From the NCBI RefSeq assembly GCF_003934165.1, contig NZ_RKST01000001.1:124001-188000 (forward strand): a stretch of DNA of 64,000 nucleotides. The letters are read 5' to 3'. Positions 37,925-63,730 of the stretch are shown here, piece by piece. Both the position numbers and the translations under genes were made by a program. The notes under the pieces are model-generated. The model did no database searches and was not told where the DNA came from. It saw nothing but the letters and a program-made list of their open reading frames with translations. Within the stretch, counting starts at the first letter, position 1. Every line of letters starts with the position of its first letter. The DNA comes from Borborobacter arsenicus. GTDB lineage: Bacteria > Pseudomonadota > Alphaproteobacteria > Rhizobiales > Rhizobiaceae.

Positions 37925-37970
37925 CTTGCAGATCAGCGGCGCGAACGGTCACCGTGGCAGCGGATTGGCC

Positions 37971-41231: not shown

Positions 41232-41289
41232 GGAAAAAACTCCTCGTGTTGATTGCATGCCCATTGAGCCGCAGCATTCGCCGCCGACT

Positions 41290-41303
41290 GCCGTAACGAC
41301 ATC
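41290..41303 (-). promoter_or_regulatory. Conserved upstream box, ParA-like copy
   Basis: GCCGTAACGACATC on the plus strand lies 59 bases before the ParA-like start. The dcm copy is identical over these 14 bases, and both are preceded at 17-24 bases by GAGCCGCAG on the plus strand. Confidence 0.55.
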
Positions 41304-41372
41304 GAGTTCTGGTAGATGCCGGCGCGCCTGCCGCCGGATCGGGCCGGGGAAACTCCCGCGCCCCGAACGCAG

Positions 41373-41399
41373 AAGGCCGGCGCTGCTCGCGCCGGCCTT
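41373..41399 (-). terminator. Hairpin after dcm
   Basis: AAGGCCGGCGC and GCGCCGGCCTT-like arms form a strong 10-11 bp stem around a 5-7 base loop, about 27 bases downstream of the dcm stop (41426, minus strand). The tail is not T-rich, but the position fits a terminator between dcm and the ParA-like unit. Confidence 0.65.
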
Positions 41400-41425
41400 G
41401 TGATTGCGGACAGGACGGTTTGCCG

Positions 41426-42421: not shown

Positions 42422-42478
42422 TGCCGAACTCCTGTGGTTGAACACAGGATCAGCGTGACCGGAGCCGCAGCCGAAACC

Positions 42479-44965: not shown

Positions 44966-46141
44966 TCAGCAACGTTCCAGACAAATCGCGACGCCCTGAC
45001 CGCCACCGATGCATAAGGTCGCCAGTCCGCGCTTAGCTGTTCGGCGCATCATTTCATGGATCAACGTCACGACGATACGGCAACCCGATCCGGCCAACGG
45101 ATGTCCGAGCGCAATTGCACCGCCGCTGGGGTTGACTTTGTGCGGATCGACACCGAGGGCTCTAATGACCGCAATGGATTGCGCGGCGAACGCTTCATTG
45201 ATCTCGAACAGATCGACGTCGCCAACGCTCCAGCCTGCGTTTTTCAGAGCCAACTCCGAGGCGTGAATCGGTCCAAGTCCCATATCTATCGGGTCGAGCG
45301 CAACGGAAGCGTAGGAGGCAACCCGTGCAGCAGGCTCAAGCTTGAGTTCTTTAAGTTTCGCCTCGTTCGCGACCAAAACAGCGGCTGCGCCGTCGTTCAG
45401 CCCGGATGAGTTTCCGGCGGTGATCGTGCCGGTTTTCGAAAAAACGGGCTTCATCCCGGCGAGCTTCTCAACCGTCACGCCGGGGCGAGGATGCTCATCC
45501 TCAGAGACAATTCTTTCGCCCTTGCGGTCGCTGATGATAATCGGGACGATCTCGTCCTTGAAGCGACCGGCCGCCAGGGCCTTGGCGGTCTTGGCCTGTG
45601 ACTGTGCGGCGAACTCGTCCTGTTCTTGACGGGTGATCTGGAACCGTTGGGCGATTTGCTCGACAGTTTCCCCCATATGGATATCGTTGAAAACGTCCCA
45701 CAGGCCGTCAACGATCATCGTGTCCGCCATGCGGGGCGCATCAGTTTGGCCATTGCGGGTGTTGTAGATGACTTGTGGCGCTTCAGTCATGGAATCCTGC
45801 CCGCCAGCAACGATCAGACCGGCATCCCCGCATTTGATGGCCTGCGCCGCAAGGTGGATCGATCGCTGCCCCGCCCCGCAGACTTGGTTGAGCGTGATGG
45901 CGGGAATTGTCGTCGGCAACCCCGCATAGATTGCGGACTGACGCGCCGGATTTTGCCCAGCCCCTCCCGTCAGAACCTGTCCCATCATCACGTCATCAAT
46001 GGAGCCGGGATCAATGTTGAGTTCCCTGACAATCGCTTCGATGACGGCTGCGCCTAGACGGGTCGCGGACACACCGGTTAGAGCGCCGCTCAGTTTCCCG
46101 ATGGGCGTGCGTTTCGCGGCGGCAATGAAGACTTCAGTCAT
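44966..46141 (-). CDS. Acetyl-CoA acetyltransferase (thiolase)
   Basis: A 391-aa thiolase. The nucleophile Cys88 is in NQVCGAGQRS, the GHP motif with catalytic His is IALGHPLAGSG near 346-356, and the second cysteine is in CIGGGQGVAICL near 377. NEAFAAQ precedes the GHP motif. It should cleave acetoacetyl-CoA or a 3-ketoacyl-CoA to acetyl-CoA. It is the last gene of the leftward operon, 25 bases after the aldehyde dehydrogenase. It is the canonical thiolase here, in contrast to the Cys-less relative at 49696. Confidence 0.95.
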   Translation of the reverse strand: MTEVFIAAAKRTPIGKLSGALTGVSATRLGAAVIEAIVRELNIDPGSIDDVMMGQVLTGGAGQNPARQSAIYAGLPTTIPAITLNQVCGAGQRSIHLAAQAIKCGDAGLIVAGGQDSMTEAPQVIYNTRNGQTDAPRMADTMIVDGLWDVFNDIHMGETVEQIAQRFQITRQEQDEFAAQSQAKTAKALAAGRFKDEIVPIIISDRKGERIVSEDEHPRPGVTVEKLAGMKPVFSKTGTITAGNSSGLNDGAAAVLVANEAKLKELKLEPAARVASYASVALDPIDMGLGPIHASELALKNAGWSVGDVDLFEINEAFAAQSIAVIRALGVDPHKVNPSGGAIALGHPLAGSGCRIVVTLIHEMMRRTAKRGLATLCIGGGQGVAICLERC

Positions 46142-46166
46142 GACCTGATCATACCCTTCTGCATTC

Positions 46167-47588
46167 CTACAGATAGCCAGCGGTGGATTTTATTTCGAGG
46201 TAGTCGTGTAGCCCCCATTCGCCATGTTCACGCCCGTTGCCCGATTGCTTGTAGCCGCCGAAGGGTGCCTCGGCCTGCCAGTCGGCCCCATTTATCCAGA
46301 TGGATCCCACCCGAAGACGGCGGGCAATCTTGCGCGCGCGCTCCAGGTCGGGACACTGAACGTAACCGGAGAGGCCGTAGACCGTGTCATTGGCAATCCG
46401 GATCGCGTCGTCCTCATCTTCATACCCGATCAGGGCGATGACGGGCCCAAAGATTTCCTCACGAGCGATCACCATGTCATTCGTGACATCGGCAAAGACC
46501 GTTGGCTGAACGTAGTAACCCACGTCGAGGCCGGCGGGCCGGCCGACACCCCCCGTCACCAACGTCGCCCCCTCATCAATGCCCGCCTGAATCAGCTTGT
46601 TGATGCGATCGAATTGCAACTTATTCACGACCGGGCCAAGCGCCACATTCGTCAGCGGATCGCCCACCGAATGGGCTTCAGCGGCCTCCCTCGCCCATCT
46701 CTTGGCGTCTTCCATGGCGGCGGCGGGGATTAACAACCGCGCGGGTGCTCGACATGCTTGGCCACAGTTCACGAAGCAGGCATCCACCCCATCGCGCACC
46801 GCTTTCTCGATATCGGCATCATGGGTAACGATATTGGCGGACTTGCCGCCCAGTTCCTGCGCAACCCGCTTTACAGTGTCAGCCGCGGCCTTGGCCACCG
46901 CCACACCCGCCCGGGTCGAACCCGTTACCGAAACCATGGCGACATCCGGATGACGCGACAGAGCCTCACCGACCACCTCGCCAGCTCCCGTAATGTGATT
47001 GTAGACACCCGGCGGAAAGCCTGCCTCATGAACCAATTCCGCGAAACGGATTGAAGATAAGGGAGAATATTCTGATGGCTTTGCCACCATGGTGCAGCCT
47101 GCCGCGAGCGCAGGGGCGACCTTTACGACCAACTGGTTCATAGGCCAGTTCCACGGCGTGATCAGTGCGCATACGCCGATCGGCTCTTTCGAAATCATCG
47201 TTGTGCCGCGCAGTTCTTCGAACGTCTCGTTTTTCAGAGCGGCGATGGCATTTTCCAGATGCGCCACACCGACCCAAGCCTGGGCCGCCTTGGAGAAGGC
47301 GAGGGTCGTGCCCATTTCACGGGTCATCAACTCGGCGATTTCGTCATAGTTTTCATTATAAAGGGCCAACAATCGCTCAAGCAGCACCAGCCGCTCTTGC
47401 TTGCTGGTCATTGACCAGTCATCGAAGGCGGCGGCGGCCGCTGCGACCGCTGCGTTCACATCGTCGATATTAGCCATGGGAATGGTCGCGGTGTGGGTCT
47501 CATCCGCTGGGTTGATCAGCTCGAACGTCTCAGTCGATCGGGGCGCGATCCATCCACCATCGATATAGAATCTTCCGACATTTTTCAT
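46167..47588 (-). CDS. NAD-dependent aldehyde dehydrogenase
   Basis: A 473-aa ALDH with start ATG 47588 behind CAGGAGATACTAAA; the longer frame to 47720 has no family support. Motifs are ITPWNWPMNQLVVKVAPALA, KPSEYSPLSS, VTGSTRAGVAV with the cofactor loop, LGGKSANIV with the general-base Glu, and the catalytic cysteine in NCGQACRAPARLL. It would oxidise an aldehyde made by the GMC dehydrogenase to the acid. It lies between the MFS gene and the thiolase in the same transcription unit. Substrate unknown. Confidence 0.93.
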   Translation of the reverse strand: MKNVGRFYIDGGWIAPRSTETFELINPADETHTATIPMANIDDVNAAVAAAAAAFDDWSMTSKQERLVLLERLLALYNENYDEIAELMTREMGTTLAFSKAAQAWVGVAHLENAIAALKNETFEELRGTTMISKEPIGVCALITPWNWPMNQLVVKVAPALAAGCTMVAKPSEYSPLSSIRFAELVHEAGFPPGVYNHITGAGEVVGEALSRHPDVAMVSVTGSTRAGVAVAKAAADTVKRVAQELGGKSANIVTHDADIEKAVRDGVDACFVNCGQACRAPARLLIPAAAMEDAKRWAREAAEAHSVGDPLTNVALGPVVNKLQFDRINKLIQAGIDEGATLVTGGVGRPAGLDVGYYVQPTVFADVTNDMVIAREEIFGPVIALIGYEDEDDAIRIANDTVYGLSGYVQCPDLERARKIARRLRVGSIWINGADWQAEAPFGGYKQSGNGREHGEWGLHDYLEIKSTAGYL

Positions 47589-47608
47589 TTTAGTATCTCC
47601 TGAAACGG

Positions 47609-48811
47609 TTAGCGCCTGCCGTTGGCGATTTTGATGGCGTCGGGATGTCTGCGCAGGGCAAGCATCGACCAGATACCCAATGCGGGGCCGATGGCGAGTA
47701 CCGAAAAGGCCCACTGCCAACCGCCGATAAACTCGACGATCTGCGGGATCAGCCAGACCGCGACGATAGTGATGGCAAAGCCGATGCCCATCTGAAACGC
47801 GAGGTTTGCACCGATCAGCGTCGGATCCGATATTTCGGTGACGGCAGCGGAAAACTGGGCGCTGTCGGCGATGGTGGAGAAACCCCAGATCAACGCCACG
47901 ACCACAAACAGTGTGACGGGACCGCTATAGAGAAATCCGATCAGTACGGCGCACCCGCCGGATACCGCCATTGCCAGAGCCGACGTGAGGCATCGCCCCA
48001 CTCGGTCCGCCATCCAGCCACCAGATATGCATCCTAATGCCCCCGAGGCGATGGCTACGAAGGTCAGGAGCGATGCATTTCCTACACCCAGTCCTGCAGT
48101 TTGCGCGGCGCTGATATAGGCAAGAAGCCACCCCCACAGCGCGTAAAGCTCCCACATATGCCCGAAGTAGCCGAAGTTGGCGAGCATGACTGCACGGTTT
48201 CGCACTATCCGCTTCAGGTGCCCAAGTTCGAACTTGGCGGACTTGAATTGATTCGGCCCGTCCTTGAGGGCCATAAAAATAGCGGCCGCAACCAGACAGA
48301 TCAGTGACGTCGCACCAATAACAAAACGCCAGTCGAACCCGACCCCGATCGCTCGGACCAGATGGGGAAAGGCCGATCCCATCGTCAATGCGCCGACGAC
48401 CACTCCCATCGCCAAGCCGCGCCCTGTAACGAACCAGGTGCCGATATATTTCATCGCGGTGGGATAGACCAACGCCAATGACGCGCCGGTCGCAAATCTA
48501 GCGAAAGCCACACCCGTTGGACCAATGTCGAAAAGGATTATTCCGTTGGCCAACCCGGCACAAAGCGTACCGATGACCAGAAGCCGCTTCATCGGCCAGA
48601 CGTCCATAAGCGCGAAGAAGCTGGCAATAAGCGCACCGACAACGAATCCGCCCTGGACCGCATTTGTCAGCCACGACATTTGAGCCAGGCTCAATGACAG
48701 GGCACGACTGATTTCCGGTGCGACAGCGGTGACAGAGAACCATGTGGACAAGGTCAGCACGACCGCCAGACTCGTCATCGCCAAAGCCTGCCACCGTCGC
48801 ATGGCTCGCAT
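47609..48811 (-). CDS. MFS transporter
   Basis: A 400-aa membrane protein with start ATG 48811, 1 base from the MaoC stop; a longer frame to 48895 runs into MaoC. About twelve hydrophobic segments are visible, with the major-facilitator loop GGWMADRVGR in the centre and an N-terminal basic motif near the first helices. It is read in line with the catabolic genes and probably imports or exports a substrate or intermediate. It is a second transport system besides the Liv-type ABC importer. Ligand unknown. Confidence 0.88.
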   Translation of the reverse strand: MRAMRRWQALAMTSLAVVLTLSTWFSVTAVAPEISRALSLSLAQMSWLTNAVQGGFVVGALIASFFALMDVWPMKRLLVIGTLCAGLANGIILFDIGPTGVAFARFATGASLALVYPTAMKYIGTWFVTGRGLAMGVVVGALTMGSAFPHLVRAIGVGFDWRFVIGATSLICLVAAAIFMALKDGPNQFKSAKFELGHLKRIVRNRAVMLANFGYFGHMWELYALWGWLLAYISAAQTAGLGVGNASLLTFVAIASGALGCISGGWMADRVGRCLTSALAMAVSGGCAVLIGFLYSGPVTLFVVVALIWGFSTIADSAQFSAAVTEISDPTLIGANLAFQMGIGFAITIVAVWLIPQIVEFIGGWQWAFSVLAIGPALGIWSMLALRRHPDAIKIANGRR

Positions 48812-48812
48812 C

Positions 48813-49268
48813 TCATAGTCCTTCCAACGGCATCGTGTAGGTTGTGGCGGTGCCTTCGACGCAAATGTCGCCCACACTGTCACGTACCGAGACATTGAGC
48901 TGGCAGATGGGTTTGTCGTCGCGCACGGAGATTACTTCGACCCTGCCGGTAATTTTTTCACCGATGCCGACTGCCTTCTTGAATACAAGGTTTGTTCCCA
49001 GAAAGACGGTTCCAGGGCCGGGCAAGTCTTCGGCCACACAGGCATTGAGGATGCCAGTGGTGACCCCGCCCTGAACAATCAGTTTGCCGAACGGCGTCTT
49101 TCTGGCCAATTCCTCATCATAATGCACGGGGTTGCGGTCACCGGTCATTTCAGTGAACGCATGGATGTCTTCCATTTTGGTGACCCGGCTACGCTCAGAC
49201 GACTGATGCAAGGCTGGCTTCCCGTTTGTAACGTTGGTCCAGCCGTTCTTTTTGTCGGTTTCGGACAT
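48813..49268 (-). CDS. MaoC-family (R)-enoyl-CoA hydratase
   Basis: A 151-aa hot-dog protein. The hydratase-2 motif is GDRNPVHYDEELA followed by GKLIVQGGVTTGIL, containing the catalytic Asp and His of PhaJ-type enzymes. It would hydrate an enoyl-CoA to a (3R)-hydroxyacyl-CoA. It is placed directly after the DUF35 gene, so hydratase, DUF35 protein and the Cys-less thiolase relative are encoded side by side. That is the gene set of steroid side-chain hydratase/retro-aldolase complexes. Confidence 0.92.
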   Translation of the reverse strand: MSETDKKNGWTNVTNGKPALHQSSERSRVTKMEDIHAFTEMTGDRNPVHYDEELARKTPFGKLIVQGGVTTGILNACVAEDLPGPGTVFLGTNLVFKKAVGIGEKITGRVEVISVRDDKPICQLNVSVRDSVGDICVEGTATTYTMPLEGL

Positions 49269-49288
49269 ATTCAGCGACCTCTTGTGGG

Positions 49289-49699
49289 TTAGATTTTGTG
49301 AAAAAAGGGCAAGATGCGGGACCCTGTCGGGACAGACTTGAAGACAAGCTGATCGCCCACGCGGATCGAGCGTCGTTCGTCAACAATGTGGCTCAACATC
49401 GTAGGGCCTTCGCTGAGCTGGACCAGTCCGACATAGTAAGGCACCGCAGGCAGCCAACCGGGATGACCTGGTTTCCATATCTGTGAAAAGGAAGTGAGAG
49501 TGCCCTTGCCGCTGGCGTCGCGCCATTCCAGCGCGTCCGCCCAGCAATGAGGACAGAGGGGGCGTGGGTAGAAGACCCCCCTGTTGCACGATGTGCAATG
49601 TTGGATCGTCAACCGGCCGCGGGCCGCAGCTTCCCAGAATGGACGAGAGAGGTCTGTGATCGTCGGACCGGGAACGTCGAGTGTGCGGTAATCAATCAT
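49289..49699 (-). CDS. DUF35 OB-fold zinc-ribbon protein
   Basis: A 136-aa protein with start ATG 49699, overlapping the stop of the thiolase-like gene (ATGA). An N-terminal zinc ribbon is CTSCNRGVFYPRPLCPHC, followed by an OB-fold (KGTLTSFSQIWKPGHPGWL, then VGDQLVFKSVPTG). Proteins of this family bind to thiolase-like partners, as in steroid Ltp2/ChsH2 and archaeal HMG-CoA synthesis complexes. The tight coupling to the thiolase-like gene supports a physical complex. Here it is a stand-alone small protein rather than a MaoC fusion. Confidence 0.9.
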   Translation of the reverse strand: MIDYRTLDVPGPTITDLSRPFWEAAARGRLTIQHCTSCNRGVFYPRPLCPHCWADALEWRDASGKGTLTSFSQIWKPGHPGWLPAVPYYVGLVQLSEGPTMLSHIVDERRSIRVGDQLVFKSVPTGSRILPFFHKI

Positions 49700-50859
49700 A
49701 GATCTGCCCCCAGGACGAGCACCACGGCCTCGGACATCGTCGCGCCGTTGCCGGTCACCAGCGCGCTTCGGCAGTTTTTGATCTGACGGTTGGGCGCGGT
49801 GCCCCGGATTTGGCGCACCGCCTCGACCACGTGAGTCATTCCTCCCGCAAGATCCGGCTGACCGAAGCCTAACTGACCGCCATGCGTGTTGATGGGCTGG
49901 CGCGCCTCGCACGACATGCCCCCATTGTCCTTCAGCCATTCCGCAAACTTGCCTGGCGCGCAAAGCCCGGCATCCTCGATGGTCGCGGCAACCATGATCG
50001 TGTAGCAGTCATACAAGGATAGAAAGTCGATATCCTGTATGCGCATTCCGGCTTGCGCAAGAGCTCGGCTGATGGACGGCTTGAGCGGACCTGACGTCAG
50101 GCTTGGGGCCTGACTGACTGCCCGGTGAGTGATTTTCTCACCGGCGCCGTTCAGAAACACCGGTGGGTGGCGCAACCTGGCTGCTTTCTCAGCAGTGGTC
50201 ACGATCACCGCATCGGCGCCGGCTACCGGCATCACGATCTCGAAAAGGTGCAACGGAGATGCAACCAGCGGCGAGGCCAAGACCTCTTCGACCGAAGCCG
50301 GTTTGCCGTGAAAGATCGCCTTATCGTTGTTCTGCGCATTGGACCGCGATCCGGCGGCGATCGCCGCATAGTCCTCGGCACGGCAACCATAAGCGGCCAT
50401 GTGCGCCTGCATCAGCAAGGCATAGGACGTATTTGCCCCCGACGCGCCGAATGGCGTGTCGAATTCGCGGGCCGGATTGCGATTGGGTGACCGCGGTGGC
50501 GGCATGTTGCGGTGATTTCCGATCACGCAAAGAACCGTTTCGCACTGCCCCGCGGCAATAGCGGCGGCCGCGCGCCAGATCATTCCCGGGCCAGAGGCAC
50601 CACCCAGATCGACCATGTTCGACATGCTCGGCTGCATGCCGAAATACTCGGCAACCGTTGCAGGCACATGCTGGGGCGTTTCACCAACCTGCGGCCCCAC
50701 CAGCAACCCGTCAATTTCCTGAGGCGCCACCCCGGCATCGGCAATAGCCTCTGCCGACACCCGCATCAGCAGTTCCATTGTCGTTACGCCGTGAGTGTTT
50801 CTCTCCGGCTTCAATTCACCGATGCCGGCCAGAGCGGCCCGCGGGCTCATATGTCTCAT
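49696..50859 (-). CDS. Thiolase-superfamily protein lacking nucleophilic cysteine (lipid-transfer/aldolase-like)
   Basis: A 387-aa protein from ATG 50859 (MRHMSPRAALAGIGELKPER), overlapping the ligase stop (ATGA). It resembles SCPx/Ltp2-type thiolase relatives. At the place of the catalytic cysteine the sequence is VDLGGASG, so Gly87 replaces Cys; the NEAFA motif is YDCYTI and the GHP motif is HGGQLGFGQP. Proteins with these changes in steroid side-chain pathways cleave beta-hydroxyacyl-CoA by retro-aldol reaction. With DUF35 and MaoC next door, that reaction is the inference here. Confidence 0.88.
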   Translation of the reverse strand: MRHMSPRAALAGIGELKPERNTHGVTTMELLMRVSAEAIADAGVAPQEIDGLLVGPQVGETPQHVPATVAEYFGMQPSMSNMVDLGGASGPGMIWRAAAAIAAGQCETVLCVIGNHRNMPPPRSPNRNPAREFDTPFGASGANTSYALLMQAHMAAYGCRAEDYAAIAAGSRSNAQNNDKAIFHGKPASVEEVLASPLVASPLHLFEIVMPVAGADAVIVTTAEKAARLRHPPVFLNGAGEKITHRAVSQAPSLTSGPLKPSISRALAQAGMRIQDIDFLSLYDCYTIMVAATIEDAGLCAPGKFAEWLKDNGGMSCEARQPINTHGGQLGFGQPDLAGGMTHVVEAVRQIRGTAPNRQIKNCRSALVTGNGATMSEAVVLVLGADL

Positions 50860-52811
50860 AGAGCCGCCTCTCGGGTCAGGGCTCTGTATTCCTCCAGGCA
50901 TTGTGGGTTGGCGAGCGACCCGACGTTCTTGACCGGTAGCCCAGCCGCGGTTGTGCGGGCAGCGCTCTCAACACGTTTGCCGTTGATCGTATAGGGTACG
51001 TCCTGAACCAGATGGATACGCGCCGGGACGTGGCGGGGGGATGCTTGAGTGCGGATATCCATCCGCAATGCGTTCAAGATGTCCTTCGAAATTACCGTCC
51101 CTTCGGCTGGCTTCAGGCACAAGACCACCTCTTCGTCGCCCTCATGAATAGCTCCGAAGACGACAAAGTCTTCAAACTGGCTGTACTTCTCGCAAACCGC
51201 ATAGATTTCCGAAGTGCCAATCCGCACGCCGCCGGGTTTGAGGGTATTGTCCGAACGGCCATGGACATAACCACTGCCCGTACAGGTAAGCTCCGCAACG
51301 TCCCCATGCGTCCAGATTTCGGCACGGTCGCTGAAGTAAGTGTCATGATACCGTTTCGCGCCGCCTTCTCCCCAAAAGGTCAGCGGCATCGAGGGAAAAG
51401 GCTCCGTGCAGACCAGTTCGCCACGCTGGCCTATGACAGGCGCACCCCGATCGTCGAAGACGCTAACCGCATGACCGAGCGCCTTGACCGTCAACTGCCC
51501 CCGCCTCACCGGATGTAAAGGCGAACCGATCAGGAATGAGCCGAGGATTTCGGTGCCGCCGGAAATAGAAGAGAACGCCATGTCGCGCTTGATCGCCTGA
51601 TAGACCCAGTCGAACTGGTGCGGCAGTGTCGGCGCGCCGCACACCAGCAGGTTGCGAAGGTTTGTCAGATCAGCGTTTTCGCGCGGGCTGAAGCCCTCGG
51701 CGGCCAGCGTCGCCAGATATTTGGGACTGATCCCCAGATGCGTCGTTCCGGCCAACTCGGCCAGTTTCCAAAGAGGGCTGCAATCCAGCCCATCGTCGGG
51801 TTTCAGGATCGGCGCGCCATCATAGAGGATAATCGTGGCGTTGGCCGCCAAGGCGGAAACCAGCCAGTGATACATCATCCACGCGGTGTTACAATACCAC
51901 ATGACGGTGTCACCTGGGCGTACATCGCCATGCAGCACATGTTCCTTGAGATGCTGCAACAACACACCGCCCGCGCGGTGAACGATGGCTTTGGGCGCGC
52001 CCGTGGTGCCAGAAGTATAGAGGATATAGGCCGGATGGTCGAAAGGCATCCGCTCGAATTCCAGATTGGCCTGCATGCCGAAATCGTCTTGGTGCACAGC
52101 TTTTAAAGCCGGGTCGACCGCGCCCTCGCCGCTGACTATCAGTGTAGTTACCGATGGCAGCTTGCCCATGATGGCGCGAATACGGTCCGATACGTCATGT
52201 CGCTTTCCGCCATATCTGTAGAGGGGCGTGGCGAAGAGAACCTTGGGCTCGACCTGCCCGATCCGGTCGATAATCGCGGCCTCGCCGAAATCGGGCGAGC
52301 AGGATGTCCAAGTCCCGCCGATCGAGACTGTCGCCAACAACGCGACAAGCGCATCGATATCGTTTGGTTGTACGCCCGCGACACGATCCCCGGGCGTGAC
52401 CCCGGCCGCACGCAGACCTTGCGCCACTTTGGCCACTCTGACCTTCAATTCACGGCGCGTCAGGGTTTGCACCTGCCCCAGTTCGTCCATCGCAAAGATC
52501 GCACGGGCCGCGTCATCGCCGCGAAGCAGGTTCTCGGCCAGATTCAGACGCGCCTGCGGAAAGAACCTTGCGCCAGTCATCCAGGCGGTTTCGTCGGGTT
52601 GGAAATAAATCTCGCCCTTGTCGCCGATCACCTCGCAGAAATCCCAAACCGCCGACCAAAAATCACCCTTCTTGTCGATGGACCAGCGGTGCAAGGTGTC
52701 ATAGTCTGACGGATCAAAGCCGTTGAGCTCCGCGAAGCGCCACAGAGCCGCAGCCCTTTTCTGGGCTTCACTCGGCGTCCAGAGAACATCGTCGTATGGG
52801 GTGTCCCTCAT
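50856..52811 (-). CDS. Acetoacetyl-CoA synthetase-like acyl-CoA ligase
   Basis: A 651-aa adenylate-forming ligase, the length and N-terminal layout of acetoacetate-CoA ligase (MRDTPYDDVLWTPSEAQKRA). AMP-binding motif is YILYTSGTTGAPKAIVH, then GGTEILGSF, and the C-terminal lysine loop VPYTINGKRVES. It would activate an acid, possibly acetoacetate or another keto or branched acid, to its CoA ester. The stop overlaps the start of the next gene, so it is part of the same translationally linked set. The true acid is unknown. Confidence 0.88.
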   Translation of the reverse strand: MRDTPYDDVLWTPSEAQKRAAALWRFAELNGFDPSDYDTLHRWSIDKKGDFWSAVWDFCEVIGDKGEIYFQPDETAWMTGARFFPQARLNLAENLLRGDDAARAIFAMDELGQVQTLTRRELKVRVAKVAQGLRAAGVTPGDRVAGVQPNDIDALVALLATVSIGGTWTSCSPDFGEAAIIDRIGQVEPKVLFATPLYRYGGKRHDVSDRIRAIMGKLPSVTTLIVSGEGAVDPALKAVHQDDFGMQANLEFERMPFDHPAYILYTSGTTGAPKAIVHRAGGVLLQHLKEHVLHGDVRPGDTVMWYCNTAWMMYHWLVSALAANATIILYDGAPILKPDDGLDCSPLWKLAELAGTTHLGISPKYLATLAAEGFSPRENADLTNLRNLLVCGAPTLPHQFDWVYQAIKRDMAFSSISGGTEILGSFLIGSPLHPVRRGQLTVKALGHAVSVFDDRGAPVIGQRGELVCTEPFPSMPLTFWGEGGAKRYHDTYFSDRAEIWTHGDVAELTCTGSGYVHGRSDNTLKPGGVRIGTSEIYAVCEKYSQFEDFVVFGAIHEGDEEVVLCLKPAEGTVISKDILNALRMDIRTQASPRHVPARIHLVQDVPYTINGKRVESAARTTAAGLPVKNVGSLANPQCLEEYRALTREAAL

Positions 52812-52832
52812 CGTTGTTCCAATCTACTTTTG

Positions 52833-54833: not shown

Positions 54834-54834
54834 C

Positions 54835-56564: not shown

Positions 56565-56582
56565 AGGACTGATCTCCTGCAA

Positions 56583-57014
56583 CTAGGAAAGATGACGCGT
56601 GTCACGGAAGATGGGACCTCGGGCTTTGACCCTGTCCAACATGCCGTTGGTGACGTATTCCGGCGTCTCGTTCGGGTCATAGGGCGGCGCCACCTGGCCC
56701 GGATAGCCGACCGCGGCGCGAGCCTCGTCAGTCATCATGTAACCACCGGTCGTCACGGTGGTGAGCGCAGTCCAGGCCGCATTATCCTCGCGCGCCAGCG
56801 CGTTCAGTTCCTTGGATATATCCTGGCCGGGACAGCGGGCGATTGCGCGCTGGAACGCCGCCTCCAGATCGGGGCGGATCCGCAGCACCTCGTCCAGCAT
56901 ATGCCGATGGACTCCGACCGATGTCGCCGCGGGCCTGTCTTTCCACGATGGGATCAGGTAATCCGCCAGTTTTCCATAGATCTCTCGCTCTGCATCAGAA
57001 AAGTTCGCCATCAT
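56583..57014 (-). CDS. Gluconate-2-dehydrogenase subunit-3-like small protein
   Basis: A 143-aa protein from ATG 57014, overlapping the GMC stop (ATGA). It resembles the small third subunit of GMC-type gluconate/alcohol dehydrogenases: SDAEREIYGKLADYLIPS at the start, then ATSVGVHRHMLDEVLRIRPDL, and a C-terminal GYPGQVAPPYDPNETP. Such subunits help export or assemble the flavoprotein. No Tat signal is visible here, so the enzyme may stay cytoplasmic. Its coupling to the GMC gene supports a complex. Confidence 0.8.
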   Translation of the reverse strand: MMANFSDAEREIYGKLADYLIPSWKDRPAATSVGVHRHMLDEVLRIRPDLEAAFQRAIARCPGQDISKELNALAREDNAAWTALTTVTTGGYMMTDEARAAVGYPGQVAPPYDPNETPEYVTNGMLDRVKARGPIFRDTRHLS

Positions 57015-58651
57015 GCCACCTCCACATTGCGGGCTTCATTGACCAGATGAGTAGCCTGCCGATGCGCAACCGCCATCAGCGTCGCCGTCGGGTTTGCACC
57101 AGCACCGGTGGGAAAGGCGCTCAGATCGAAGATGAACAGGTTAGGAATATCGTGGCTCTGACCGTATTGGTTGAGCACCGACTCTTTTGGATCATTCCCC
57201 ATCCGCGTGGTTCCGAGCAGATGCCATCCACTTTCGCGCATCTGCGGCGCGACCGATGTCGATTTGGCGCCTGCCGCCTCCATCGACTCCTTTGCGCGCT
57301 CGGCATGGAAGTCGAGCAGCCGTCTGGAGTTCTCGGACGTCTTATAAATTATCTTCGGCGCGGGGATGCCATCGCTGTCGACAAGATCGGCGTCGATTTC
57401 GACTCGGTTCGATTCCTCGGGAAGATCTTCTCCAACAATAGCCCAGAGCGCTGTGCGACCGAACTTGCTTTCGATCATCTTGTGCCAGTTTTCTCCCCAG
57501 TGGTCTTCGATCCTGCCGTTATCCGAAAAGACCTCAGAACCCACGAAGCCTTTGGACGACAGAGGTCCGCCTCCTGACATCCCACCCCATTTGGCACCGC
57601 GCACGAAACCGCGGGATTCGTCGGTTTCATAGAACTGCAGCGTGTTGATCAACTGACCGGACGGGCCATACCAGCTTTCGAGATTCTCCTCGAAATGGCC
57701 CATGACCAGGCCAAACGGATGCATCATCAAATTCCTGCCGACCAGGCCGCTGGAATTGGCCAACCCGTCGGGGAAGCGTTTCGATTTTGAATTCAGCAGG
57801 ATGCGGGGGGTTCCGATGGCATTGGCACAGAGGATGACGATCTTAGCCATCTGTTTACGCTCGCGCCCGTTCTGATCGATATAGACGGCTCCTGTGACAC
57901 GGCTCAGATTGTCGTCATAGATAATTTCGCTGACGCGTGCGCCCGCGATCATACGGTGACCGTATTTCTTGGCCTCCTTGAACAGCACCAGATCGGGCGA
58001 CCACTTTGCCGCCTCCGGGCAGCCAAACATACAGGTGCCGCGCCGCGCGCAGGGGTTCTGGCCCTGCCATGGAATGGACGGCATGGCATTCAGGCCCGGC
58101 CACCAATGCCAGCCAAGCTTGTCCATCCCTTCGGCCAGTTTCATGCCCGCCTTGCCGATCGGGATCTGCGGGGTGGGATAGCCCGCCTGTTCGGGATAAC
58201 CCGGGTTTCCCCTCGTTCCCGATGAACTGACAAGCTTTTCGACTGCTTCCAGATGCGGCAGAACCTCATAATAATCAAACGGCCAGTCCACGGCGACGCC
58301 ATCGAGTGAGCGCACTTTGAAGTCCGAGGGCAGGAACGGAACCCAGTGCCCTGCCCAGATCGTGGCACTACCACCGACGGCCGACTGCATCAGCGGCTCG
58401 ACATCGCTTTCGGATGTATTGATCGGGTAGTCCCGCTCCCGGTCCCGCACGTTCGGAGCGGGATGCCACTGTTTTCCGGCGGCAAGTTCGAATTCCTTCT
58501 TGTCGCCAGGATAATCGCCGGGATCGAACCAGGTGCCCTGCTCAAGGGTAACAACAGACATTCCGGCCTCGGTGAGCAGTTTCGCCGTCACCGCGCCCGA
58601 TGGCCCGGACCCAATGATCAGAACATCGGCCTCTTGATCAGCACGCGCCAT
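57011..58651 (-). CDS. GMC-family flavoprotein alcohol dehydrogenase
   Basis: A 546-aa FAD enzyme. The N-terminal Rossmann motif is VLIIGSGPSGAVTAKLL (10-26), the GMC signature region reads QSAVGGSATIWAGHWVPF, and the C-terminus holds GWHLLGTTRMGNDP and FPTGAGANPTATLMAVAHR with the active-site His/Asn pair. It would oxidise an alcohol, passing electrons to a carrier; the adjacent ETF and Fe-S oxidoreductase make ETF a plausible acceptor. It is related to gluconate and polyethylene-glycol dehydrogenases. Exact substrate unknown. Confidence 0.9.
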   Translation of the reverse strand: MARADQEADVLIIGSGPSGAVTAKLLTEAGMSVVTLEQGTWFDPGDYPGDKKEFELAAGKQWHPAPNVRDRERDYPINTSESDVEPLMQSAVGGSATIWAGHWVPFLPSDFKVRSLDGVAVDWPFDYYEVLPHLEAVEKLVSSSGTRGNPGYPEQAGYPTPQIPIGKAGMKLAEGMDKLGWHWWPGLNAMPSIPWQGQNPCARRGTCMFGCPEAAKWSPDLVLFKEAKKYGHRMIAGARVSEIIYDDNLSRVTGAVYIDQNGRERKQMAKIVILCANAIGTPRILLNSKSKRFPDGLANSSGLVGRNLMMHPFGLVMGHFEENLESWYGPSGQLINTLQFYETDESRGFVRGAKWGGMSGGGPLSSKGFVGSEVFSDNGRIEDHWGENWHKMIESKFGRTALWAIVGEDLPEESNRVEIDADLVDSDGIPAPKIIYKTSENSRRLLDFHAERAKESMEAAGAKSTSVAPQMRESGWHLLGTTRMGNDPKESVLNQYGQSHDIPNLFIFDLSAFPTGAGANPTATLMAVAHRQATHLVNEARNVEVA

Positions 58652-58683
58652 ATCGTTTTCCTTTCCTGTTGAGTTCTCGGACC

Positions 58684-59469
58684 TCAGGCGGCCTCTGCAA
58701 TTCCAAGATAAATGTCGTGAAGATCGTCCCGCGCGGCCAGGTCTTCAGCAGATCCTTGCAAGACGACATGCCCGTTAGCGACCACATAGGCGCGATGAGC
58801 ATGAGCAAGCGAAACACGCATGTCTTGTTCCGCAACAAGAAATGACATGCCAAGCTCGCGGTTCAGTCGCGAAATGATTTCAAACACTTCATCGACGATG
58901 ATCGGCGCCAGCCCCATCGACGGCTCGTCAAGCAGCACCAGTTCGGGTTTGGTCAGCAGGGCTCGTCCGATCGCCAGCATCTGCTGTTCTCCGCCCGAGC
59001 ACAAACCGGCGGCGATTTTGCGTTTGTCCTTCAGGCGCGGCAACCAAGAGTAGATCTCCTCGATATCGGCCTCCATCTGCCGGCGGCTAGGCTTGCGCAG
59101 GAAAGCGCCGCTCCGCAGATTCTCCTCCACGGTCAGATGCGAGAACACATGACGGCCCTCAAGCACATGAACGACCTTTTTGCTTTTGGTAAGCCGGTGC
59201 GGGGCCATGCCGGCGATGCTGACTTGATCCAGCAGAATGTCGCCTTTAGTGATCCGGGCGCGTTCGGTTCCGGCAATCCCCGAGATCGCCTTGAGCGTCG
59301 TGCTTTTGCCGGCTCCGTTGGCCCCGATGAAGGCGATGATCTCACCTCTGTCGACATGCAACGACACGTCGGCCACACCGAGAATGGATGGATCGTAGAC
59401 CACCTCGATACCGTCGATCGAGAGAAGGGGGTGCGAATTTTTCGATCTATCGCTCACAGCAGTCTCCAA
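58684..59469 (-). CDS. livF: Branched-chain-type ABC importer ATPase (LivF-like)
   Basis: A 261-aa ATPase. Walker A is GANGAGKSTTLKAI, the signature motif CSGGEQQMLAIGRALL, Walker B ELVLLDEPSMGLAP, and the H-loop region VAEQDMRVSLAHAHR. It pairs with LivG in the Liv/HAAT family, which imports amino acids, aromatic acids and other carboxylates. It lies 33 bases from the GMC gene. Ligand unknown. Confidence 0.94.
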   Translation of the reverse strand: METAVSDRSKNSHPLLSIDGIEVVYDPSILGVADVSLHVDRGEIIAFIGANGAGKSTTLKAISGIAGTERARITKGDILLDQVSIAGMAPHRLTKSKKVVHVLEGRHVFSHLTVEENLRSGAFLRKPSRRQMEADIEEIYSWLPRLKDKRKIAAGLCSGGEQQMLAIGRALLTKPELVLLDEPSMGLAPIIVDEVFEIISRLNRELGMSFLVAEQDMRVSLAHAHRAYVVANGHVVLQGSAEDLAARDDLHDIYLGIAEAA

Positions 59470-59543
59470 GTACCTGCGTGCGGTTGTCAGAGGGCGAAGC
59501 GCATTGCGCTCCCCGCCCCCCCGCGTACATCTGGTGTCGGTCG

Positions 59544-60887
59544 TTACTCGCTGGAGAGATCGCGCGGCGTGATGCCATTTTCCGCAGCGAATTTGGCCGA
59601 AACCTCAGCCACCAGCGGCTTGATCACTTCGGCGTCGCCGGCGATCCAATCGGTAACCAGATTGAACTTTTTGCCATCCCAGCACTGGATGCGCGCGGCA
59701 CCGCCACCTTCGTGGTCCGCGGCGCTGACGTGAAGCTCCTGCAAGAGACCGGTCATGCCCATCTCTTCCAGGCGCTTGCCGTCGATCTTCATGTTTTCCA
59801 GACCCCACCGCATTTCATCGCCGGTCAGGGGGCGGTTACCGAACTTCTGCATCGCGGTACGCATGCCCTCGACGGACAAAGCCGCATTCACCATGCCGAT
59901 ATTGTAATAGACAGTACCGAAGGTGCTTTTGTCCTGCAGATCGGACATACCGGTATCCAGGATCTTCTCCTGCAGGCGCTTATGGATGACGAAATCTGTC
60001 CCAGCCGGATATGGTGCCAAGCCGCAATAGCCGACCGCCGCGTCCTCGGCGGGGATCAGGTCCGTCTCAGAGCTAGCCCAGACGTCGCCAATCATCTTGC
60101 TGATGTCTATACCGAAACGCTTGGCCGTCTTGATAGCAACCGGCGTCCCCACGCCCCAAGTGCGCAGGACCACGAAATCCGGCTGAATGCCCCGCACTTG
60201 CCGCCAGATAGCGGATTGTTCGGATCCCGGATGAGCTACGGGAATCTGAATATCTTCAAACCCGTATTTCGCGGCCAGAACCGTCATCACCGGTTGTGAC
60301 GAGCGTCCATAGCCAGAGTCGTGATAAACTGTGACGATCTTCTTGCCCTTGAGATTCTCGAATCCGCCCATTTGCTGGGCAATATAGTTGATCGCCACAG
60401 ACCCTTGGGAATAGTAGGTGAACAGTAGCGGGAATTCGTACTCAAACACCAAGCCGTTCAGTGACTCCGGACGCCCGCCCGCCGGGTCGATCAACGGAAT
60501 TTTGTCTTGGCGTGCCCGTGGCCCGAGAGCGTAGGTGGCCGGTGTCGAGTGGGTGATGAAGAAGGCCATTGGAGACGAACCGTTCACGCCATCCTTGACA
60601 CGCTCGTAAACCTCCACCGCACGGTCGGGGCTGTATTCGGTTTCGAACTCCTGAACGTCCAGCTTGACGCCGTTTACCCCGCCTTCGACTTCATTGATGT
60701 ACTTGAAATAGTCGAGTTCCCCAGCGAACCACGGGGCTCCGGACGAGGCATATGGCCCCACCCGATAGGTTGGCAGCGGCACGAATTGTGTATCTTCCGC
60801 GTTCGCTGCCGTGGCGCCGAACGCGCCTATCACAATGACTGCGGCCAGTGCTGATGTCAGGGACGATTTTCTAATCCTGGATATCAC
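59544..60887 (-). CDS. livK: ABC importer substrate-binding protein (LivK-like)
   Basis: A 447-aa periplasmic binding protein starting at GTG 60887, chosen because AGGAGG lies about 8 bases upstream and the signal sequence (KSSLTSALAAVIVIGAFGATAANAED) starts right after. The mature part has the Liv-type fold with YHDSGYGRSSQPVM and VVLRTWGVGTPVAIK. It should bind the operon's substrate; its size and several aromatic residues allow a bulky ligand. It lies 65 bases before livM, so the whole importer is one block. Confidence 0.9.
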   Translation of the reverse strand: MISRIRKSSLTSALAAVIVIGAFGATAANAEDTQFVPLPTYRVGPYASSGAPWFAGELDYFKYINEVEGGVNGVKLDVQEFETEYSPDRAVEVYERVKDGVNGSSPMAFFITHSTPATYALGPRARQDKIPLIDPAGGRPESLNGLVFEYEFPLLFTYYSQGSVAINYIAQQMGGFENLKGKKIVTVYHDSGYGRSSQPVMTVLAAKYGFEDIQIPVAHPGSEQSAIWRQVRGIQPDFVVLRTWGVGTPVAIKTAKRFGIDISKMIGDVWASSETDLIPAEDAAVGYCGLAPYPAGTDFVIHKRLQEKILDTGMSDLQDKSTFGTVYYNIGMVNAALSVEGMRTAMQKFGNRPLTGDEMRWGLENMKIDGKRLEEMGMTGLLQELHVSAADHEGGGAARIQCWDGKKFNLVTDWIAGDAEVIKPLVAEVSAKFAAENGITPRDLSSE

Positions 60888-60952
60888 GGTACGTTCCTCC
60901 TTCCTTAACGTTATGTATTGGTTGGTGGGTTGAAACAAACGTCGGGTATTGG

Positions 60953-62017
60953 TCACGACTTTCGCCGCTTTATGTACCCCGTCAGGTTCCGGAGCATTTT
61001 GTCGAAACCTTCGGGTTCCTTGATCAGCAGAATGATGATGAGGCTGCCAAAGATGACTTTATTCATGTTGGACAGGAAACCCGGGTTTAGCGCGCTGCCC
61101 AGCGTGGCCTTGACCATATAGTCGATGAGGATGGGCAACAGCAGAATGAAAGCCGCCCCTATGAAATTCCCGCGGATCGAACTCAGGCCGCCGATGATAA
61201 TGATGAACAGGACCTGGAAGGAACGGTTGATGTCGAAGCTGAGCGTGCTGGCCGTGCCGAGGAACAGGAATGCCCAGAGCGCGCCCGCGATCCCCAGATA
61301 GAAAGAGCCGATAGTGAAAGCCAAGCGCTTATAGCGAGCAGAGTCGATGCCGATGACACCGGCCGCGGTGTTCATGTCGCGGATCGCCATCCAGTTGCGC
61401 CCGACGTGGCTATGGATGATATTCTTTGCAGCCAAAGTCATTAACAGGACAATGATAACGACAACGTAATAGCGTATAGTGTTGTTCCCATTAATATCCA
61501 GATCAAATAAGGTCATTGGAGGTAACGTAATTGTAGGAACCGATCCGTAATTGTAGAAATAGGCATTCTTAGTGAAGAGCCACTCCACAAAGAATTGCGC
61601 AGCAAGGGTTGTTACCATTACGTAGAACCCTTTGATCCGCGAACTGGGCAGGCCAAAGAGATAGCCCGCAATTGCCGCGGAAATGCCGCCCAATAGCAAG
61701 GCAAGGGGAAAGTTCGTTATTCCCCCATGCGCCGCGAAGTTGAACATCCCATAGGCCCCGACCGCCATAAAGGCGCCCGCCCCCACCGACACCATCCCCG
61801 CATAGCCGGTCTTGATGTTCAGCCCGATCCCGGCCAGGGAAAGAATCATCACAGGCGTAATAATGGCCATAAGCCAGTAGTGGCTCGCAAAGAGCGGGGC
61901 CGTCAGGACCAGGATAACGAAAGCAATCGTCGATGCACTGGGCAACTTGCGTGTTTGCGGTTTCGCATTGATTTGAAGGCTGGTCTCTACGGTCATCTGC
62001 CCGGCGTTGGTTTTCAT
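60953..62017 (-). CDS. livM: ABC importer permease (LivM-like)
   Basis: A 354-aa membrane permease with about ten hydrophobic segments and the Liv signature region YPVGTPGYAGMVSVGAGAFMAVGA-type glycine-rich loop (here INIKTGYAGMVSVGAGAFMA) and the EAA-like loop FTIGSFYLGIAGALWAF. It partners LivH to form the translocation pore. A part of the gene near 61440-61560 is noticeably more AT-rich than the backbone, consistent with acquired DNA. Start ATG 62017. Confidence 0.92.
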   Translation of the reverse strand: MKTNAGQMTVETSLQINAKPQTRKLPSASTIAFVILVLTAPLFASHYWLMAIITPVMILSLAGIGLNIKTGYAGMVSVGAGAFMAVGAYGMFNFAAHGGITNFPLALLLGGISAAIAGYLFGLPSSRIKGFYVMVTTLAAQFFVEWLFTKNAYFYNYGSVPTITLPPMTLFDLDINGNNTIRYYVVVIIVLLMTLAAKNIIHSHVGRNWMAIRDMNTAAGVIGIDSARYKRLAFTIGSFYLGIAGALWAFLFLGTASTLSFDINRSFQVLFIIIIGGLSSIRGNFIGAAFILLLPILIDYMVKATLGSALNPGFLSNMNKVIFGSLIIILLIKEPEGFDKMLRNLTGYIKRRKS

Positions 62018-62023
62018 GGCACG

Positions 62024-62914
62024 TCACACCCTTTCGATTTCGGCGTCGCCGAACAGACCAGTCGGGCGGATAAAGAGGAAAATCAAAGCGAGGAAATAAG
62101 CGAACCAGAACTGAATCCCACCGCCAACAATTGGACCCAGGTAAGTCTCGGCCAGAGCCTCGGCCGCTCCCACGATAACGCCCGCGATGATCGCGCCTCC
62201 GATGGATGTAAAGCCGCCGATAATGAGCACCGGCAGTGCCTTGAGAACCACCAGCGACAGGTTGAACGACACCCCTTGGCGGGCGCCCCATGCCAGACCG
62301 GCAACCAGCCCGACCAATGCCGACACCGCCCAGACCACCTGCCAGATAAAATTCAGATTGATGCCGATGGATTGCGCCGCGCCGGCATCGTCAGCGACGG
62401 CCCGCAATGAGACACCAATCCGTGTCTTGTTGAAGAACAACGCCAGCAACAGAGTCAGCGTGATGGCGACACCCGCGGCATAAAGATCAAACTGGCTGAT
62501 AAGGATGTCCCCCCAGAAGATCGGCAGATCTTCGACACCCAGATTGAGCGCATGGACTTCGGTGCCCATGATCCCTTGCGCCAAGCCCTCGATGACGAAG
62601 GACAATCCTAAAGTGGCCAGGAACAGAGTCATCGTCGATCGGTTGGCCAAAGGCCGCAATACGATCCGCTCTATTGCGAGCGCGCCGATCACCGTCACGA
62701 CCATGGTTGCGAACAGCGCCAGCGGAATCGGCCACCCCAGTTTCAGCAAGGTTACGAACAGCAAGGCTGAGAATAGAAGCATCGCACCCTGAGCATAATT
62801 GAAGACTCCGGACGCCTTGAAGATCAGCACAAAGCCGATGGCGACCAGGGAATACATCGTACCGGCCAGCACGCCGCCAATCAGTGTTTCAAGAAAGAGA
62901 GCCATGAATCCCAT
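62024..62914 (-). CDS. livH: ABC importer permease (LivH-like)
   Basis: A 296-aa permease with start ATG 62914 (ATG 62905 is equally plausible; neither has a strong ribosome site). The N-terminus FLETLIGGVLAGTMYSLVAIG and FKASGVFNYAQGAMLL are classic LivH phrases. About eight transmembrane helices are visible. It is 6 bases from livM and 27 bases from livG. Confidence 0.94.
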   Translation of the reverse strand: MGFMALFLETLIGGVLAGTMYSLVAIGFVLIFKASGVFNYAQGAMLLFSALLFVTLLKLGWPIPLALFATMVVTVIGALAIERIVLRPLANRSTMTLFLATLGLSFVIEGLAQGIMGTEVHALNLGVEDLPIFWGDILISQFDLYAAGVAITLTLLLALFFNKTRIGVSLRAVADDAGAAQSIGINLNFIWQVVWAVSALVGLVAGLAWGARQGVSFNLSLVVLKALPVLIIGGFTSIGGAIIAGVIVGAAEALAETYLGPIVGGGIQFWFAYFLALIFLFIRPTGLFGDAEIERV

Positions 62915-62941
62915 CTTTCGTTTGCTAGAGCACAGCCGACA

Positions 62942-63730
62942 TCAGTGAACTGTCCCCAGATAGGCGCTGATCACTTCGGGGTTCTTCGCGACATCCTCGG
63001 GCCGACCGTCCGCCAGTTTGCGCCCGTAGTCGAGGACGACGACGCGGTCGGACAGGCTCATGACGACCGAGATGTCGTGCTCGATCAGAATGATCGTGAT
63101 CCCAAGCTTCTTGTTGATGTCCAGAATGAATCCAGACATCTCCTGCTTTTCCTCTTTGTTCATGCCGGCCATCGGCTCGTCCATGAGGATCATTTCGGGA
63201 TCAGACACTAGGGCACGGGCAAGTCCGACCCTTTTCTGAATTCCATAAGGTAAGGCTTCTACAACAAGGTCTCGATAGGGGTTCAGGTCCAGGAAATCGA
63301 TCGCCTGATCGGACTTCAGCTCGAACGATGCCGACTCCTGTCGGGCACGAGGAAGTCCAAGCGCGTGTTCGATTACGGTAGTTTTGGCTTTACGTGACAA
63401 GCCTGCCATCACGTTTTCCAGAACCGTCATCTTGCCGAAGAGAGCGTTGTTCTGAAACATGCGGGCGACGCCCATCGCAGCCACTTTCAGCGGCTCCATC
63501 CGCTCAAACGTGGTGCCGTTGTAGGTGATCAACCCCTCTTGCGGAACATAGACGCCATTCAGAATATTCAGCATCGAACTCTTGCCGGCCCCATTCGGGC
63601 CGATCAACGAACAGATCGAGCGGCGCTCAACCTCAAACGAAAACGAATTGATCGCCTTCGCACCACCAAAGGACAGGGACACGTGGCTGACGGCTAGAAG
63701 TATGTCTTTGGAAGATGCCCCCGCGGTCAT
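62942..63730 (-). CDS. livG: Branched-chain-type ABC importer ATPase (LivG-like)
   Basis: A 262-aa ATPase and the first gene of the operon in transcription order. Walker A GPNGAGKSSML, the signature-like YGIQKRVGLARALV, Walker B EMILMDEPMAGM, and the H-loop LIEHDISVVMSL are visible. The signature is the LivG variant (no SGG). The gene lies right next to the putative promoter gap at 63731 onward. Confidence 0.94.
   Translation of the reverse strand: MTAGASSKDILLAVSHVSLSFGGAKAINSFSFEVERRSICSLIGPNGAGKSSMLNILNGVYVPQEGLITYNGTTFERMEPLKVAAMGVARMFQNNALFGKMTVLENVMAGLSRKAKTTVIEHALGLPRARQESASFELKSDQAIDFLDLNPYRDLVVEALPYGIQKRVGLARALVSDPEMILMDEPMAGMNKEEKQEMSGFILDINKKLGITIILIEHDISVVMSLSDRVVVLDYGRKLADGRPEDVAKNPEVISAYLGTVH

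Follow-up and report, generated by a model that had tools for sequence, protein, structure and literature searches.

A probably mobile two-module operon of Borborobacter arsenicus, with a candidate non-steroid Sal-type retro-aldolase and a putatively ETF-linked GMC dehydrogenase, possibly directed at gonyol or a similar methylated 3-hydroxy acid

The window analyzed here is a 64,000-nucleotide stretch of the Borborobacter arsenicus genome (contig NZ_RKST01000001.1, positions 124,001 to 188,000), and the subject of this report is a catabolic operon on its minus strand. The operon runs leftward from livG (63730) to a thiolase gene (44966). It encodes a LIV-type transporter (livGHMKF), a GMC dehydrogenase and its presumed small partner (gmcL, gmcS), an electron-transfer flavoprotein (ETF; etfB, etfA), an etfD-like iron-sulfur (Fe-S) protein, an acyl-CoA ligase, a Sal-like enzyme, an OB/DUF35 protein, a MaoC hydratase, an MFS transporter, an aldehyde dehydrogenase (ALDH) and the thiolase. 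We read it as a horizontally moving operon of two modules that would degrade a small hydroxy compound soluble in water; a methylated onium zwitterion resembling gonyol or carnitine is the likeliest candidate. We give this reading a probability of about one half. The operon is real and modular, and it is probably mobile. A narrower version, in which the mobile operon serves gonyol or a related 3-hydroxy acid with a methylated sulfonium or ammonium group through a non-steroid Sal-type retro-aldolase and an ETF-accepting GMC enzyme, is put forward tentatively and is rather doubtful as a whole.

Gene content, gene order, recurrence and conserved catalytic residues were read directly from the sequences. 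An earlier note on this DNA had described a tightly packed leftward run of sixteen genes; the packing was confirmed, and the count is seventeen. Every gene has a Pfam match except the 143-residue gmcS. With the most likely starts, junctions mostly measure -4 to +32 bp, the exception being livK-livF. In the transporter part they are 27 bp (livG-livH), 6 bp (livH-livM), -4 bp (livM-livK) and, for livK-livF, 74 bp, or 86 bp if a start with a ribosome-site-like stretch is used. They continue with 32 bp (livF-gmcL), -1 or -4 bp (gmcL-gmcS), 0 or 18 bp (gmcS-etfB), -1 or -4 bp (etfB-etfA), 1 bp (etfA-etfD), 21 bp (etfD-ligase), -4 bp (both ligase-sal and sal-OB), 20 bp (OB-maoC), 1 bp (maoC-mfs), 20 bp (mfs-aldh) and 25 bp (aldh-thl). 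The G+C content of the operon stretch is 55-59% in 4-kb bins, whereas the remaining window has 61-65%.

Cleavage enzyme, its partners and the acyl-CoA ligase

The product of gene 12 (49696..50859, minus strand like all operon genes), of a type annotated as SCP2 thiolase, has PDB entry 9MYR as its best solved relative (E 2e-84). The next matches were 4U4E, named a thiolase (1.8e-51), 6OK1, the Ltp2 aldolase (1.7e-42), and 7YVY, named an acetyltransferase (1e-37), while the DUF35-linked thiolases 6ESQ and 7PXP gave 6.9e-20 and 2.6e-18. In the accessible part of PMC12329534, 9MYR is described as CtSal, a bile-acid retro-aldolase, together with the DUF35 domain of CtShy. Its catalytic dyad is formed by Tyr302 and Cys304 of a YDCY motif, with Gln347 and Gln352 as proposed support; a glycine stands where thiolases have their cysteine, and CtSal cannot perform thiolysis (same part of PMC12329534). 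In the window protein, YDCY lies at residues 297-300 and GGQLGFGQ (GGQ-x4-Q) at 341-348. YDCY and both glutamines are kept in all 24 aligned sequences, window included, and the nucleophilic thiolase cysteine is absent from all 24, the stretch reading DLGGA(S/A). Since the CtSal catalytic residues are conserved and this cysteine is missing, the step is most likely a retro-aldol cleavage and not a thiolysis. The earlier note had proposed cleavage of this type; the conserved CtSal residues place the proposal on firmer ground than that note could know, and a retro-aldol core to the pathway appears very probable from the sequences.

The DUF35 partner, an OB/zinc-ribbon protein, is encoded by the next gene (49289..49699; PF12172, PF01796). 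A relative is present in 22 of 22 loci, and its C4 zinc site (C-X2-C-X10-C-X2-C) was read in 21. The MaoC hydratase that follows (48813..49268; PF01575) carries the Asp/His motif as GDRNPVHYD. This motif, for which an accessible section of PMC11321319 served as reference, is kept in all 20 loci that have the gene.

Much of this set is shared with the Shy-Sal-Sad system of Proteobacteria, which cleaves bile-acid side chains: a retro-aldolase with the YDCY dyad, a DUF35 partner, a MaoC hydratase and a following aldehyde dehydrogenase, which in the bile-acid system is Sad (PMC12329534, accessible part). However, DUF35 and MaoC are separate genes in the operon and fused in Shy, and the operon has an acetoacetate-ligase-like ligase and polar-solute transporters. 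A steroid or terpenoid side-chain operon would explain the likeness to Sal, Shy and Sad, as the nearest characterized relatives of the aldolase-DUF35 pair act on bile-acid side chains. We consider it highly improbable: PRK12845, the single marker model searched, which we take to represent 3-ketosteroid delta-1-dehydrogenase, rose above its cut-off in none of eight genomes, the ligase belongs to the acetoacetate-ligase type, and neighboring genes are of onium and sugar types. On the same marker, the sterols that the earlier note had listed as candidates are disfavored. What is new here is predicted Sal-type chemistry outside a steroid context, coupled to a GMC-ETF branch.

Thiolysis of a 3-keto acid was also weighed. 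The GMC enzyme would oxidize a 3-hydroxy acid, the ligase would activate the resulting 3-keto acid and the SCP2-type enzyme would thiolyze it, much as for deoxyribonate. The ligase does pass the acetoacetate-ligase model, and an analogous oxidize-activate-cleave logic has genetic support for deoxyribonate in the part of PMC6365646 available. As described there, the oxidative deoxyribonate pathways resemble the operon in splitting a 3-hydroxy acid into acetyl-CoA and a shorter product and in having an acetyl-CoA acetyltransferase as the next enzyme, but the operon has a Sal-like enzyme, and a flavoprotein in place of the SDR. The missing nucleophilic cysteine, the inability of CtSal to thiolyze and the existence of a locus with the cleavage genes but no GMC gene (L109, below) all speak against thiolysis, which we regard as unlikely. 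An analogy with the vanilloyl-acetate case (HpvZ/VceA) was considered as well and was not adopted.

The ligase (50856..52811) scores 676.2 bits against the acetoacetate-CoA ligase model TIGR01217 (cut-off 520.9), and its best solved relative is 4WD1. Its pocket motif reads AWMMYHW in 23 of 23 ligases of the lower module described below and GWMMWNW in five of five stand-alone enzymes. The two groups are separated by 28 positions (at least 90% fixed in the 23 and fixed in the five). The pair before the Gly-Ala/Ser-Pro stretch is VC in ligases of the window type (7 of 8), SA in those of the sugar type (14 of 15) and ST in stand-alone enzymes. Going by the acetyl-CoA synthetase family, the differing residues presumably line the acyl pocket. 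Because of these differences, the module ligase is likely to act on another acid than the stand-alone enzymes, and the window-type and sugar-type ligases may differ from each other in their acid. Plasmids as well as marine and soil bacteria carry such genes, annotated as thiolases, beside an acetoacetate-CoA ligase; reading them as retro-aldolases would alter the predicted chemistry of this group.

GMC dehydrogenase, electron branch and proposed route

The best solved relatives of the gmcL product (57011..58651; PF05199, PF00732) are FAD-glucose and fructose dehydrogenases. A C-X5-C-X3-C motif, at residues 201-211 in the window, was present in all 16 relatives looked at. In the FAD-glucose and fructose dehydrogenases this three-cysteine pattern presumably binds a 3Fe-4S cluster, and we assume the same cluster type for gmcL. 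Dehydrogenases of that type have a cytochrome c subunit and an exported small subunit. The operon shares with them the GMC fold, the cysteine motif and an adjacent small gene, but Pfam detected no cytochrome c domain in any of the 17 gene products, none of seven aligned gmcS sequences has a twin-arginine start, and an ETF with an Fe-S quinone branch is found instead. The gmcS gene (56583..57014) adjoins gmcL in all seven operon copies (here and below, the window copy and those of six other genomes). Its modeled fold gave no PDB match at E 0.001 (low-depth model; predicted local distance difference test, pLDDT, 75), so its role as partner rests on this adjacency. In the LaoABC alcohol oxidation system of Pseudomonas, an alcohol dehydrogenase, a small partner and an ALDH likewise stand together; to our knowledge, that system includes no ETF, ligase or aldolase.

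In all seven operons, gmcLS is followed by ETF and Fe-S genes (with livK in between in one, L004); the same holds for a second operon of the same genome and for Agrobacterium tumefaciens (L044). In the window these are etfB (55794..56564, the most likely start in a reading frame that opens at 56582; PF01012), etfA with an FAD-binding domain (54835..55797; PF00766, PF01012) and an etfD-like Fe-S/CCG oxidoreductase with two CX2CX2CX3C motifs (52833..54833; PF02754, PF13183), presumed to be the membrane ETF:quinone oxidoreductase. The operon contains no acyl-CoA dehydrogenase to claim the ETF. On this gene arrangement, electron flow from GMC through ETF to quinone is reasonably probable. Such an arrangement, if true, would be an electron route for which the literature search found no description, and nothing was found on an ETF-linked GMC enzyme with carnitine.

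For the real substrate we infer the following reactions. The acetoacetate-ligase-like enzyme would convert an acid to its acyl-CoA, and MaoC could hydrate an enoyl-CoA to a 3-hydroxyacyl-CoA. The Sal-like/DUF35 pair would split the 3-hydroxyacyl-CoA by retro-aldol into acetyl-CoA and an aldehyde, which the ALDH (46167..47588; PF00171) would oxidize to an acid. The GMC dehydrogenase would oxidize an alcohol and feed the same ALDH, its electrons passing from the Fe-S cluster to EtfAB, the membrane Fe-S protein and quinone. The terminal thiolase (44966..46141; PF00108, PF02803), of the acetyl-CoA C-acetyltransferase type (TIGR01930, 456.6 bits, cut-off 240.55), would handle acetoacetyl-CoA. In the case of gonyol, gonyl-CoA would yield acetyl-CoA and dimethylsulfoniopropanal, and the ALDH would turn the latter into dimethylsulfoniopropionate (DMSP). 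Import, GMC oxidation, aldehyde oxidation, CoA ligation, hydration and a private ETF branch had all been claimed in the earlier note and find support in the sequence. The earlier note did not recognize a known pathway in the combination, and our literature search, which covered few subscription journals, found no description of it.

Recurrence, modules and mobility

A pattern scan of GTDB contigs returned seven loci, six of them with the operon; the seventh (L008) is a GMC match of 23% only. The gene set, whose order the earlier note had proposed to seek in other genomes, recurs at six more loci, more than chance would give, with gmcL 74-89% identical to that of the window. The holders are three Rhodobacterales, a Pseudomonas, a Vibrio and a gammaproteobacterial metagenome-assembled genome (MAG); gmcL identities are 89% in Pseudomonas sp. 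CC6-YY-74, 88% in LSUCC0387, 86% in Rhodovulum imhoffii, 84% in a Rhodobacterales MAG, 75% in Vibrio penaeicida and 74% in the gammaproteobacterial MAG. Common to the seven copies are gmcL, gmcS, etfB, etfA, etfD, the ligase, the Sal-like gene, OB and an ALDH. In the gammaproteobacterial MAG, identity of the ALDH drops to 53%, and the Sal-like, OB and ALDH genes are located at the opposite side of liv. MaoC is present in five copies, the MFS gene (47609..48811 in the window, most likely start used; PF07690) in five plus a remnant in Pseudomonas, LIV in four, and an adjacent terminal thiolase in three. Pseudomonas has MaoC (51%) and thiolase (42%) relatives next door, beside an AtoE-type transporter, and in Vibrio a 332-residue gene with a weak AMP-binding match overlaps livG (L007:3725-4723). 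Outer flanks are limited: L003 opens inside livG and stops shortly after the thiolase, and L002 opens 414 bp before gmcL.

The operon is made of two modules, each of which is also found without the other. The upper one comprises the GMC dehydrogenase with the ETF and quinone branch, accompanied by LivGHMKF; the lower one comprises the ligase, Sal-like, OB/DUF35, MaoC and MFS genes. The lower module also occurs with no GMC gene nearby in Rhodobacterales and Rhizobiales, at 16 loci from five plasmids and 11 genomes of the window's own family (394 sampled). L109 apart, 13 of these 15 loci (L092-L096, L110-L115, L117 and L118) lie beside a conserved operon of GntR, SDR, class II aldolase, Rbs-type ABC and sugar-kinase-type genes; the exceptions are L116, a short contig, and L119.

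L109 is the GMC-less locus closest to the window (Sal-like 84%, MaoC 84%, ALDH 79%, thiolase 75%). It carries ligase, Sal-like, OB, MaoC, MFS, ALDH and thiolase genes, and no GMC, ETF, LIV or sugar-type match lies in the 20-kb stretch analyzed. The lower module can therefore stand alone. Upstream of the module, a YjjI-like glycyl radical enzyme and a radical SAM gene were noted (L109:3367-5758).

Conversely, the second operon of the window's own genome, about 22 kb away (L015:12235-19496, L016:1-4023), carries a Pot-type ABC transporter, GMC and partner, ETF, Fe-S protein and ALDH, and no ligase or aldolase. The upper module of Agrobacterium tumefaciens also lacks the lower one and is accompanied by LIV-type genes. 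A MaoC-MFS pair fragment lies on the opposite strand at L015:5923-6937 and is perhaps a relic of a related module.

Among the 394 genomes of the family, the next-best gmcL match is the paralogue in the same genome (57%), and three of three same-genus relatives gave no gmcL match at E 1e-100. Across the class, the Sal-like gene was found in one of 385 sampled genomes, the window's own. This patchy distribution is best explained by lateral movement. Downstream of the operon lie two open reading frames (ORFs) without Pfam match, a cytosine methylase and another ORF without match, followed by genes for a TrwB-type coupling protein and a TrwC relaxase; a serine recombinase comes at a greater distance. 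This stretch adjoining the operon (27468-42445; the methylase is of the C5 type) is probably a mobilizable element; it had no megablast match among plasmids. On the other side, a divergent TetR gene lies about 450 bp upstream of livG, just beyond the window (L015:2181-2777).

Substrate class and competing readings

The main clues to the substrate come from neighboring genes. A GcvT-type gene lies alongside three of the seven copies (L005, L006 and L089), together with ChoX-type transporters in two copies, MetF-type genes in two and a BCCT-like gene in one. In Pseudomonas, the flank holds BCCT-like, GcvT-type, formyltransferase (PurU-type) and FolD genes, with MetV/MetF-type genes upstream. In LSUCC0387, GcvT-type and AraC genes stand upstream, and MetV/MetF-type, ChoX, permease and ChoV genes downstream on the same strand, ChoX and ChoV exceeding their choline-transporter cut-offs. 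The Rhodobacterales MAG has GcvT, ChoX-type, permease and ChoV-type genes downstream. LivK is absent genome-wide (E 1e-60) from these three and present in the other four, the absence being weaker evidence in the MAG (G418), which is possibly incomplete. Relatives of GcvT, ChoX, BCCT, MetF, PurU and FolD were found in none of the 16 GMC-less lower-module loci (Fisher P 0.02, indicative only, as loci are related and stretches span 10-25 kb).

MetF-type genes beside a GcvT-type gene suggest, by analogy, the methyl-tetrahydrofolate of sulfonium demethylation; the three operon-linked GcvT copies are 52-70% alike. ChoX binding-site residues were taken from accessible parts of PMC8371380 and PMC5643546. 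The two operon ChoX proteins keep the aromatic box (Trp43, Trp90, Trp205) and Asn156-Asp157; Tyr119 is Tyr or Phe, and Asp45 is replaced by Ala or Asn. Since the box is kept and Asp45 is changed, we read their ligand as an onium compound other than choline. Altogether, GcvT-type, ChoX-type and BCCT-like neighbors where LivK is missing suggest a methylated onium hydroxy compound as substrate, to which we assign slightly less than an even chance. The earlier note had thought of 1,3-butanediol or a branched terpenoid alcohol; no specific evidence for either was found, and the neighbors of these three copies point to a methylated onium.

Gonyol itself is the best single guess, at long odds. In the part of PMC7221440 available, gonyol is reported to be consumed by four marine bacteria, of which three release neither dimethyl sulfide nor methanethiol, and the route is left open. 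Should a methylated onium osmolyte prove to be the substrate, the operon would offer a concrete, testable set of genes for gonyol-type compounds, gonyol being an algal osmolyte.

L-carnitine, crotonobetaine or choline would fit a variant in which carnitinyl-CoA is cleaved by retro-aldol to betaine aldehyde and the ALDH yields betaine. This chemistry suits the ligase, MaoC and Sal-like enzymes, the ChoX-type and BCCT-like neighbors agree with it, and the best NCBIfam model for the ALDH is betaine-aldehyde dehydrogenase (TIGR01804), with 435 of 668.6 bits, below cut-off. However, a BKACE gene lies elsewhere in the window's genome beside a carnitine 3-dehydrogenase just over its cut-off (593.3 of 592 bits), and this pair, of which neither member is among the 17 operon genes, makes L-carnitine less likely. 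In Pseudomonas, a BKACE gene lies beside a ChoX-family gene, so the standard carnitine route seems present there and in the window's genome. The ChoX relative at that Pseudomonas locus keeps Asp45, unlike the operon ChoX proteins. We judge the carnitine variant improbable.

A 1,3-diol or 3-hydroxy alcohol of non-onium type, such as the 1,3-butanediol of the earlier note, could instead be degraded in series, GMC and ALDH producing a 3-hydroxy acid that would be ligated, cleaved by retro-aldol and passed to the ALDH again. This would place GMC and ALDH in one linear chain. It is also consistent with the second operon of the genome, where GMC, ETF, Fe-S protein and ALDH occur and the lower module does not, and with the sugar-type genes that adjoin the lower module elsewhere. 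It leaves the GcvT-type, ChoX-type and BCCT-like genes beside three of seven copies unexplained, and Pseudomonas putida is reported to use a ped-cluster route for (R)-1,3-butanediol (PMC13390443, accessible part). Such a diol is possible and, in our view, the less likely case.

Several observations weigh against our overall reading of the operon. The sugar-type neighbors of the lower module imply that the acid need not be an onium. The operon-linked GcvT proteins do not pass the DmdA model PRK12486 (170, 164.2 and 158.1 of 410 bits), and two other LSUCC0387 genes come nearer to it (369.6 and 336.5 bits), so the operon-linked GcvT may act on something other than DMSP. The BCCT-like gene barely exceeds its cut-off (27.3 of 27 bits). 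The window copy and three others have LIV and lack onium genes in the stretches examined (L003 being a short contig), and the window's only GcvT relative, 26% identical, lies on the plus strand far from the operon (1455-2402, ORF 1416-2516). MaoC is absent from two copies. In the Pseudomonas copy, the closest to that of the window, the ligase frame is interrupted; as the MFS gene there is also partial, this copy may be decaying. Finally, ETF adjacency is not general: an ETF match lay near only 2 of 20 GMC relatives (39-55% identity), and a general GMC-ETF pairing was rejected. These 20 stretches cover 18 of the 31 family places outside the window's genome and two others; three were short or ended by the contig.

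The transporter genes of the window are those of the LIV type: the ATPases livG (62942..63730; PF00005, PF12399; best NCBIfam model PRK11300 LivG, under cut-off) and livF (58684..59469; PF00005), the permeases livH (62024..62914) and livM (60953..62017; both PF02653), and livK (59544..60956; PF13458), a putative periplasmic binding protein. LivK matches PDB 4ru0 (E 2.6e-165), an entry whose name says no more than putative branched-chain amino acid binding protein.

Two further loci were noted. In LSUCC0387, a corrinoid-activase-like gene, a pterin-binding protein and two further genes diverge from the choline-type transporter (L057:2545-7180). A Shinella plasmid (L124:2264-9596) groups ETF, PurU, FolD, acetoacetate ligase, Rid and acetyl-CoA acetyltransferase genes, perhaps for carnitine or betaine.

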